Of a DNA stretch of 64,000 nucleotides, positions 53,553-55,531 are shown piece by piece. The number at the start of each line of letters is the position of its first letter. Positions within the stretch are counted from its first letter, which is position 1. The position numbers and the translations under genes were made by a program. This DNA is from Marinifilum sp. N1E240 (GTDB lineage: Bacteria; Bacteroidota; Bacteroidia; Bacteroidales; Marinifilaceae), in NCBI RefSeq assembly GCF_009295825.1, contig NZ_WHKF01000004.1, forward strand, positions 434,001 to 498,000, given 5' to 3'. The notes below the pieces were generated by a model. It saw only the letters and a list, made by a program, of their open reading frames with translations, was not told the origin of the DNA and did no database searches.

Positions 53553-54863
53553 TTAGAACAATTGACTACTTAATGCCTGAAGAGCAGCAATCTTGTCTTC
53601 CTGATTTACTAATACCGAGATATTGTGTTTGCTTCCGCCATATGAAATCATACGCAAAGGGATGTTTTCTAGGGCACCAAGAACTTTCTTAGCACTTCCT
53701 GCTGATTCCGAAATAAAATCACCAACAATACAAATAATTGATTGATTTTGATCTATTTCAACGCTTCCGTATTTAGCCAATTCGCTTTCTATTTCCTTCA
53801 AATTCGAATTATCGTCAATAGTTAAAGAAACGGCAACTTCCGATGTGGTAATCATGTCTATCGGAGTCTTGTAAATTTCGAATACTTCAAAAACTTTGCG
53901 CAAGAATCCGTAAGCTAAAAGCATACGACCCGATTTAATTTTGATTGCTGTAATTCCATCTTTAGCAGCAATAGCTTTAATCCCTTTTCCAACCAGATCA
54001 TTGGAGATTAAGGTTCCTGCATCTGTTGGACTTAGAGTGTTTTTTAAGCGTACAGGTACACTTTGTGATTTACAAGGCATGATACTCGAAGGGTGCATAA
54101 TTTTAGCACCAAAATAGGCTAACTCAGCAGCTTCGTCGAAGGATAATTGTTCAAGTGCTTTGGTATTTTCAACATATCTTGGATCGTTGTTGTGAAACCC
54201 ATCTATATCAGTCCAAATTTGAACCTCTTCTGATTGCAAAACAGATCCTATCAATGAGGCTGTGTAGTCACTTCCACCTCTCTTTAAATTGTCGATCTCG
54301 CCATAAACATTTCTACAAATAAAACCCTGAGTAATGTATAGATTGTGTTCTGTTTCTTCGCTAAGAATTCTGTCTAAATTTTCTTTGATATAGAAATAAT
54401 CTGGTTCACCATCCTTATCTATTCTCATAAAGTTTAGGGCAGGTAGGAATACTGAATTAACTCCAGATTCTGACAAATAGTAGTGAAACATTGCAGTTGA
54501 AATCAATTCTCCCTGAGCCAATATCGCCTTTTCCTGAAGTGTGGTAAAGCTTCGGAAAACAAAATTTCGGATGTAATTAAAATGAGATGTAATTAGCTCA
54601 TTTCCTTTTGATTTATATTCTTCGCTTGCATATAAATCATCTATTCTATCTCTATATTGCTGTTCTAATTCAGTGATCTTTTCGTTAGCTAAATCATTCT
54701 GTTCCTGATACAATAGTTCCGTAATTTCAACCAGGGCATTTGTGGTTCCTGCCATTGCTGATAAAACGATAATTCTGGACTCATCCGTCTGGACAAGTTG
54801 AGCCAAATTTTTAATTCTTTCAGGCGAACCTACTGATGTTCCGCCAAATTTTAAAACTCTCAT
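53553..54863 (-). CDS. lysC: Aspartate kinase (monofunctional)
   Basis: 436 residues. Kinase domain with KFGGTSVGSPERI at the N-terminus and GGSDYTASLIGS later; C-terminal regulatory region with two ACT repeats (about 310-436; MITTSEVAVSLTIDDN and ICIVGDFISE). No homoserine dehydrogenase is fused. It is the first gene of the lysC-lysA operon. The leader contains a strong hairpin with a T tract ending about 85 nt before the ATG, and further upstream a Lys-rich 18-codon frame; lysine-responsive attenuation is therefore likely, besides feedback through ACT. Confidence 0.94.
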   Translation of the reverse strand: MRVLKFGGTSVGSPERIKNLAQLVQTDESRIIVLSAMAGTTNALVEITELLYQEQNDLANEKITELEQQYRDRIDDLYASEEYKSKGNELITSHFNYIRNFVFRSFTTLQEKAILAQGELISTAMFHYYLSESGVNSVFLPALNFMRIDKDGEPDYFYIKENLDRILSEETEHNLYITQGFICRNVYGEIDNLKRGGSDYTASLIGSVLQSEEVQIWTDIDGFHNNDPRYVENTKALEQLSFDEAAELAYFGAKIMHPSSIMPCKSQSVPVRLKNTLSPTDAGTLISNDLVGKGIKAIAAKDGITAIKIKSGRMLLAYGFLRKVFEVFEIYKTPIDMITTSEVAVSLTIDDNSNLKEIESELAKYGSVEIDQNQSIICIVGDFISESAGSAKKVLGALENIPLRMISYGGSKHNISVLVNQEDKIAALQALSSQLF

Positions 54864-54947
54864 TGGTTAATAGTTTTTTGTAATCCAATTCAATTGGAGT
54901 GTTTGTTATTGTATTTGCTTTACTATGTTTTTTAGAATTATAAGTTC

Positions 54948-54977
54948 AAAAAAAGCCTGCAGAATTTCTGCAGGCTT
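54948..54977 (-). terminator. Strong hairpin with T tract in the lysC leader (attenuator or plain terminator)
   Basis: On the minus strand a 12-bp perfect stem AAGCCTGCAGAA / TTCTGCAGGCTT with a 1-base centre, followed by seven T in all. It lies 43 nt after the stop of the Lys-rich small frame and about 85 nt before lysC. It could also end transcription from the MIF-like gene 210 nt upstream. Confidence 0.85.
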
Positions 54978-55019
54978 CTATATTTTATGAGCGTTACATT
55001 ATTCTACATACAAGTTTTA

Positions 55020-55076
55020 TCACAACTGTTTATTGCGTTTAATCTGTTTCTTGTGTTTGTAAACTAATATCGTCAT
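55020..55076 (-). CDS. Putative lysine leader peptide of the lysC-lysA operon
   Basis: Eighteen codons from the ATG at 55074-55076 to TGA at 55020-55022: MTILVYKHKKQIKRNKQL. Five of 18 residues are Lys, spread over positions 7-16, just before the stop. The layout of a short frame with codons for the end product, then an intrinsic terminator, then the first enzyme of the pathway matches ribosome-mediated attenuators of the his, trp and thr kind. No known lysine riboswitch fold is seen. I could not draw a convincing antiterminator by eye, and an AT-rich sequence can give Lys codons by chance. Confidence 0.6.
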   Translation of the reverse strand: MTILVYKHKKQIKRNKQL

Positions 55077-55186
55077 CTCTTTTTTTTAATTTCTGATGTA
55101 AAGATGTATAAAATCCGAATAAAAACAATAAAATACTTTCAAATTGTTAAAAAATTAACTGAAAATTATTTTTCAAACGTTTTAAA

Positions 55187-55531
55187 TTAAAATAGAATTC
55201 CATTCCAGCCCCAAAAGCCTCTTGGCACATCCATAAATTCAACATACACTCTGTCTTTTGGAATTTTTAGCTTCTCTTCAGCCAAACACGCAAACTTATT
55301 CGATAAATCTTTTGTTTTAGTATCTGGTAATCCGATACTTTTTAGTTGAAGAAAAATGGCTGGATCATCCATTCCTCCTAAGGTCATCTCAATTTTAGGC
55401 TCAAATGCTGTCATTACATATTTCTCTGGTTTTCCCAGTTCGAAAGAAATTAATGTGGAGCATTCTTTCAGAAAATCTTGTTGTTTTCTGCTTGAAAAAC
55501 TTTTGTTAGTTTGAACTTTTAAATAGGGCAT
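55187..55531 (-). CDS. MIF/phenylpyruvate tautomerase-like protein
   Basis: 114 residues, the size and pattern of the macrophage migration inhibitory factor family: Pro2 after Met is the catalytic base, and the EPKIEMTLGGMDDPAIFLQL segment and C-terminal VYVEFMDVPRGFWGWNG are typical. It forms trimers with tautomerase activity on keto acids in related proteins. The bacterial role is unknown. It lies upstream of lysC on the same strand but is separated by the leader. Confidence 0.88.
   Translation of the reverse strand: MPYLKVQTNKSFSSRKQQDFLKECSTLISFELGKPEKYVMTAFEPKIEMTLGGMDDPAIFLQLKSIGLPDTKTKDLSNKFACLAEEKLKIPKDRVYVEFMDVPRGFWGWNGILF

Follow-up and report, generated by a model that had tools for sequence, protein, structure and literature searches.

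A candidate lysine-sensing, ribosome-mediated transcription attenuator upstream of lysC-lysA in Marinifilum and related Bacteroidales

Introduction

Lysine operons are controlled by riboswitches and by feedback on the enzymes that they encode. Leader-peptide attenuation in Bacteroidota was reportedly suggested by Vitreschak et al. in 2004 for several amino acids, lysine not being one of them. Clues to this class of control have been described before amino-acid operons of Flavobacterium psychrophilum, the accessible part of the report naming pheA and hisG (PMC9723704). In Sinorhizobium the short ORF SEP5, with six Thr and three Lys codons, is put forward, in the accessible text of its description, as no more than a possible leader peptide (PMC10117765), and a survey of Actinobacteria reported no RNA regulation of lysine operons in that group, naming the L-box for lysine elsewhere (PMC1262725). 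The initial annotation of the locus analysed here held that a Lys leader peptide would be unusual; neither a published lysine-specific leader-peptide attenuator nor the phrase "lysine leader peptide" was found in the literature searched, outside of which lie most subscription journals. As far as found, leader-peptide control is thus known for other amino acids and, within that literature, apparently undescribed for lysine. If the attenuator proposed below is real, lysine joins the leader-peptide repertoire, and the locus would provide a clean model for Bacteroidota, in which control of amino-acid operons at the RNA level has been little studied.

The lysC-lysA leader region

The window, i.e. 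the whole stretch of 64,000 nucleotides analysed from Marinifilum sp. N1E240, carries the entire element on its minus strand (Table 1). All of the parts initially described were found again in the sequence, including the 18-codon frame with its five Lys codons (AAA, AAG, AAA, AAA and AAA), the 43 nt between the leader stop and the 5' arm of the terminator, and the seven T. The terminator is strong and is sited between the leader ORF and the first structural gene, lysC, which starts 84 nt past the last T (about 85 nt had been estimated) and is followed by lysA after 21 nt. The identity of both genes was confirmed with TIGR models (TIGR00657, aspartate kinase, 294.8 bits against a cutoff of 208.7; TIGR01048, lysA, 384.9 bits against a cutoff of 297.9).

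Table 1. Features of the lysC-lysA leader region and its surroundings, in window coordinates.
Feature	Position	Strand	Remarks
MIF-like gene	55531-55187	-	upstream, outside the element; in Ancylomarina not found ahead of lysC
Promoter-like site TTG-N19-CATCTTTA	55128-55099	-	Bacteroidota sigma type, predicted from sequence
Leader ORF MTILVYKHKKQIKRNKQL, then stop	55076-55020	-	18 codons; frame and Lys columns conserved in 22 aligned sequences
Antiterminator strand (region 2) TGTAGAATAATGTAACGCTC	about 55008-54989	-	predicted from nascent-RNA minimum-energy folds and per-column pair counts
Intrinsic terminator GAAGCCTGCAGAAATTCTGCAGGC	54978-54948	-	hairpin of 11-13 bp, then seven U (T at 54954-54948); nearly invariant in 22 sequences
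lysC	54863-53553	-	monofunctional aspartate kinase with C-terminal ACT domain; proposed regulated gene
lysA	53531-52362	-	diaminopimelate decarboxylase; second gene of the operon

The Bacteroidota promoter consensus consists of TAnnTTTG at -7 and TTTG near -33 (PMC7366714). Sequences of the form TTG-N19/20-(T/C)AnnTTT(A/G) occur at the place matching that of the promoter-like site of the window in loci L004-L021, and a related TTTG-type -7 sequence precedes the leader in Ancylomarina. Given such promoter-like sequences upstream, transcripts should run through the leader.

It had been cautioned that Lys codons are common in AT-rich DNA, and a short Lys-rich ORF by itself is no rarity here: when the intergenic region was shuffled 1000 times, 112 of the shuffles (about 11%) contained an ORF of 12-30 codons with at least five Lys. 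The combination of a terminator near the gene with a Lys-rich ORF just upstream was obtained in none of 200 shuffles. The decisive evidence is conservation, not the single sequence.

Conservation in Marinifilaceae

The window's genome belongs to a family comprising the Marinifilum, Labilibaculum and Ancylomarina group, here called Marinifilaceae. The leader frame and the terminator precede lysC in all 24 Marinifilaceae-type copies checked, from six genera, and a covariance model recovered 24 strong family copies with E values of 1e-16 to 6e-23. In the 23 family loci extracted first, leaders are 17-25 codons long and each listed peptide contains 3-5 Lys, the ATG lies 11-12 codons ahead of a K(R/H)NK core, and a near-identical terminator follows 24-46 nt past the leader stop. 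The Marinifilum breve copy has a KPNK core and retains the Lys codons.

In an alignment of 22 sequences the 54 nt of the ORF are free of gap columns, of which there are 16 among the 49 columns that follow. Variation in the leader frame is greatest at position 3 of the codons. Three columns encode Lys in 22/22 sequences with AAA/AAG ratios of 10:12, 21:1 and 21:1, so that the comparison with relatives proposed initially finds both the frame and its Lys codons kept, with synonymous changes among them. Lys codons occur at twice the number expected from composition (27 observed, 13.7 expected). This pattern of conservation is of the coding type and focused on lysine, and from it we infer that the leader is translated.

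Two further observations concern these copies. The K(R/H)NK core (leader codons 13-16, 55040-55029 on the minus strand) keeps CGC/CAC and AAT beyond what lysine sensing would need, for which a hairpin formed across these codons or an effect of the peptide may be responsible. In a Marinifilum metagenome-assembled genome (L010/L039), about 155 extra bases separate the terminator from lysC (248 nt instead of the usual ~92), with leader and terminator intact.

A predicted antiterminator at constant distance from the Lys codons

No clear antiterminator had been seen by eye in the window, a statement which has to be revised, as folding of the nascent RNA reveals a conserved strand, TGTAGAATAATGTAACGCTC, that could pair with the 5' arm and loop of the terminator (GAAT:ATTC, TGTA:TGCA and GCT:AGC; in the order of the RNA, 5' GAAU...UGUR...GCU with AGC...UGCA...AUUC), and whose leading TGTA is able to extend the pairing into the 3' arm. 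When the nascent RNA is folded up to the terminator loop, one and the same nested hairpin results for essentially every sequence. With the copies upstream of thrA (see below) included, a hairpin built alike is predicted in all 20 distinct sequences, some of the thrA copies having it shortened or shifted. The covariation that was to be looked for is found in the outer helix, which changes by lineage: GAAU:AUUC, GAAUU:AAUUC in Labilibaculum-type copies, GAAUA:UAUUC in some Ancylomarina, and GAAUAAU:AUUAUUC or GAAUAAC:GUUAUUC in the thrA copies. Two lysC copies from Ancylomarina carry a G-to-A change by which one pair of the terminator is lost and a U-G pair of the antiterminator becomes U-A, which weakens the former structure and improves the latter. 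In A. salipaludis (L023) the fold of lowest energy overall is the extended antiterminator.

In the window itself the antiterminator is weak: its energy is -4.6 kcal/mol as long as the 3' arm has yet to emerge, and taken as a single duplex it is not better than shuffles (P 0.55). A column-shuffle test of the antiterminator in the joint alignment was marginal (z -1.3), probably due to misplacement by MAFFT of a one-base shift in the Labilibaculum-type copies; the antiterminator was judged on per-sequence folds and explicit pairs. The predicted structure is mutually exclusive with the terminator, and thermodynamically modest. A conserved 1:2 hairpin was not found, RNAalifold on the full alignment returning the terminator and weak 1:2 pairs only, and individual folds of the 1:2 region differ between clades.

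The first bases of the last three Lys codons lie 25-28, 34-37 and 43-46 nt upstream of GAAU in 22/22 sequences, while the stop codon wanders from 6 nt inside GAAU to 15 nt before it; what stays constant is therefore the position of the Lys codons relative to the antiterminator strand. As a ribosome covers some 12 nt downstream of its A site, one stalled at any of these Lys codons would leave the strand free, whereas one at the stop would reach the edge of the strand or cover it; in many copies, with the stop 13-15 nt before GAAU, a terminating ribosome would reach the edge only.

Proposed mechanism

The initial reading of the locus as a ribosome-mediated lysine attenuator gains support from the comparison of sequences, namely from the conserved frame, the antiterminator and the exchange of codons at thrA described below, and we consider it very likely that lysC-lysA is under the control of a lysine-sensing, ribosome-mediated transcription attenuator. 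Transcription would start shortly before the leader ORF. Under a shortage of charged tRNA-Lys, the ribosome would stall at one of the Lys codons, the spacing of which is as given above, leaving UGURGAAU-AA-UGUR-AA-GCU free to pair with the emerging 5' arm and loop of the terminator. With this predicted and conserved pairing in place the terminator would fail, and lysC-lysA would be transcribed. When lysine is plentiful, the ribosome would go on as far as the stop codon, which lies at the strand or beside it, and hinder formation of the antiterminator, and the strong hairpin with its U-run would end transcription. The least supported step of this scheme is how formation of the antiterminator would be prevented once the ribosome has left, as no conserved 1:2 hairpin was found.

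Exchange of codons upstream of thrA

The best matches of the lysC-leader model outside lysC are found in four Ancylomarina genomes (L242-L245; E 2e-7, 3.5e-5, 2e-4 and 0.01), about 32 nt before a gene for a bifunctional aspartokinase/homoserine dehydrogenase (thrA). These copies retain the 3' chassis, TGTGGAATAATGTGAAGCTT ... AAGCCTGCAG..TTATTCTGCAGGC, and encode leader peptides (MNFTLTTTTIITMGSIITMPRSSCGIT, MNFTLTTTTMITMGSIITMPKSSCGIT, MNFTYRTTMNMTTGTIFTMPRFSCEIT and MNSALTTYMDQTTGTSIMMPCSSCGIM) that are rich in Thr, Ile and Met, the products of the thrA branch. Such a swap of codons is predicted by the attenuation model and is hard to explain otherwise, and at the level of sequence comparison it is the strongest evidence for attenuation. 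The lysC/thrA pair of Ancylomarina amounts to a natural codon-swap experiment, which renders directly testable the notion that codons set specificity while the RNA chassis does the switching.

The lysC leaders of Ancylomarina themselves have several Thr codons beside Lys, which suggests either duplication from a leader with both Thr and Lys codons, or dual sensing. The window's genome has a thrA gene of its own (L255, G000:C2, 45483-47912 on the minus strand), preceded by a Thr/Met/Ile leader, MNKMTNIESMMHMPTRGMRYSMHFISMNITATITPTTTTL, on a different chassis. In L254-L271 a hairpin, CCCTTTAGGGGG, spans the stop of the thrA leader and is conserved in Marinifilum and Labilibaculum, with no obvious U-run terminator; this leader appears to have an attenuator layout unlike that of lysC. 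Other matches to the model in the family, all below threshold (L246-L253), look like unrelated terminators.

Occurrence in other Bacteroidales

A strict test for a leader plus terminator was passed by 18 of 189 other lysC loci, mostly from Bacteroidales, whereas dinucleotide shuffles gave 0.0 per 189; the 18 include the Marinifilum breve copy, which the motif filter had missed. A looser scan followed by inspection yielded distant leaders that are rich in Lys (L072, MKKTKKYNKQKKDKTICRALLF; L084, L132, L202, L071, L128 and L159) or in both Lys and Met (L111 of Perlabentimonas, L183, L213, L216, L217 and L224), and within the window's family Lys- and Met-containing leaders with YKQMM cores are found in genera g3 and g4. 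Many Met and Lys codons are also seen in the leaders of L030-L032, L142, L143, L145, L155 and L157, an example among the Lys-plus-Met set being MAMAMLMKKRM. The occurrence of Met and Lys codons in one leader suggests that both could be sensed by a single attenuator, and hence a combined sensing of end products of the aspartate family.

In the distant leaders Lys is enriched 1.8-fold and Met 4.3-fold over composition, with Thr not enriched, and the distant lysC leaders share only their richness in Lys or Lys/Met and a loose YKQ motif. Of the 17 distant loci tested, 14 have a classical antiterminator strand close to the end of the leader and complementary to a terminator arm (P < 0.04), and these antiterminators are stronger than those of the Marinifilaceae type. 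The element is patchy in its distribution. In the window's family, leader and terminator are absent before lysC in genera g5, g7, g8, g9, g13, g15 and g17, and loci devoid of them are L028, L029, L033, L144, L146-L154, L156, L158, L160 and L161; this type of control would have been lost, or never been present, in the genera without it. We lean, with more reserve than for the lysC-lysA element of the window itself, towards the broader view that attenuators sensing lysine (lysine plus methionine in sister lineages) are a widespread and unrecognised form of lysC-lysA control in Bacteroidales, and that their modular chassis was copied before thrA in Ancylomarina and re-tuned to Thr/Ile/Met. The window's genome also contains a further aspartokinase-like ORF of 418 aa (L002, G000:C64, 390-1646 on the minus strand), divergent from an ORF (1963-2985) resembling fructose-1,6-bisphosphatase.

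Alternative explanations

The conservation of K(R/H)NK beyond Lys alone, and the fixed distance of this core from the antiterminator, would also be expected if lysine or another ligand caused the nascent K(R/H)NK peptide to stall the ribosome, with no part played by codon starvation. Such peptide arrest is nevertheless unlikely in view of the KPNK core of one Marinifilum copy, of the wholly different Thr/Ile/Met-rich peptide encoded on the same chassis at thrA, and of the loose resemblance between the distant lysC leaders.

A lysine riboswitch, of the L-box or of a new class, controlling the terminator with the ORF being incidental, is very unlikely. Terminator-controlled lysC is typical of L-box control, and short blocks of the RNA are indeed conserved; however, this conservation is of the coding type, and by the measure of the known lysine aptamer the 5' RNA is short and has little structure. 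At gathering scores the window gave no match to any Rfam family, and the Rfam lysine aptamer model remained unmatched within 54860-55190 even at E values up to 5. A T-box was likewise considered and discarded, with no Rfam match at gathering or permissive thresholds. Permissive searches gave scattered sub-threshold matches (Leu_leader, Thr_leader, MicC and others), which were treated as reflecting the generic shape of a terminator, and 18 further loci, distant lysC leaders and thrA leaders included, gave no match to Rfam families.

Least likely of all is that the hairpin simply terminates the MIF-like gene and that the Lys-rich frame arose by chance in AT-rich DNA: although such frames arise by chance in about 11% of shuffles and the MIF-like gene lies co-oriented upstream in most of the clade, this earlier suggestion is contradicted by Ancylomarina, where leader and hairpin persist and the MIF gene was not found upstream of lysC, which together with the promoter-like sequence between MIF gene and leader assigns the hairpin to lysC, and it is further opposed by the synonymous Lys changes in the conserved frame and by the exchanged codons of the thrA copy.

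Comparison with known attenuators

The proposed lysine attenuator shares with the his, trp, thr, ilv, leu and phe attenuators a short leader ORF in which codons for the product of the pathway are enriched, an intrinsic terminator and a (here predicted) competing antiterminator; upstream, where those attenuators have a promoter, it has a promoter-like sequence. The resemblance in layout to his, trp and thr that was pointed out initially thus holds at the level of sequence except for a clear 1:2 hairpin. The element differs from the classical attenuators represented in Rfam (Thr_leader, Trp_leader and Leu_leader), with scores below threshold, in the amino acid proposed to be sensed, lysine, and in the position of region 2, which follows the stop codon in most copies, with no conserved 1:2 hairpin found.

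Among other described systems, the elements of F. psychrophilum belong to the same phylum and the same class of control, lysC or a Lys leader not being among those named in the accessible part of the report (PMC9723704). SEP5 of Sinorhizobium likewise precedes a gene of the aspartate pathway and contains Lys codons, but this short ORF is alphaproteobacterial and Thr-rich, and the accessible text describes no terminator or antiterminator for it (PMC10117765). The L-box before lysC is alike in the gene regulated and in the logic of the terminator; in the case described here there is no aptamer and no Rfam match, and translation of the leader is the proposed sensor. Finally, the thr operon leader, with its Thr/Ile codons before a bifunctional aspartokinase/homoserine dehydrogenase gene, acts in the same pathway. 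The window differs from it in having Lys codons before a monofunctional lysC and lysA, whereas the thrA leader of Ancylomarina displays the Thr/Ile logic of the thr operon on the chassis of lysC.
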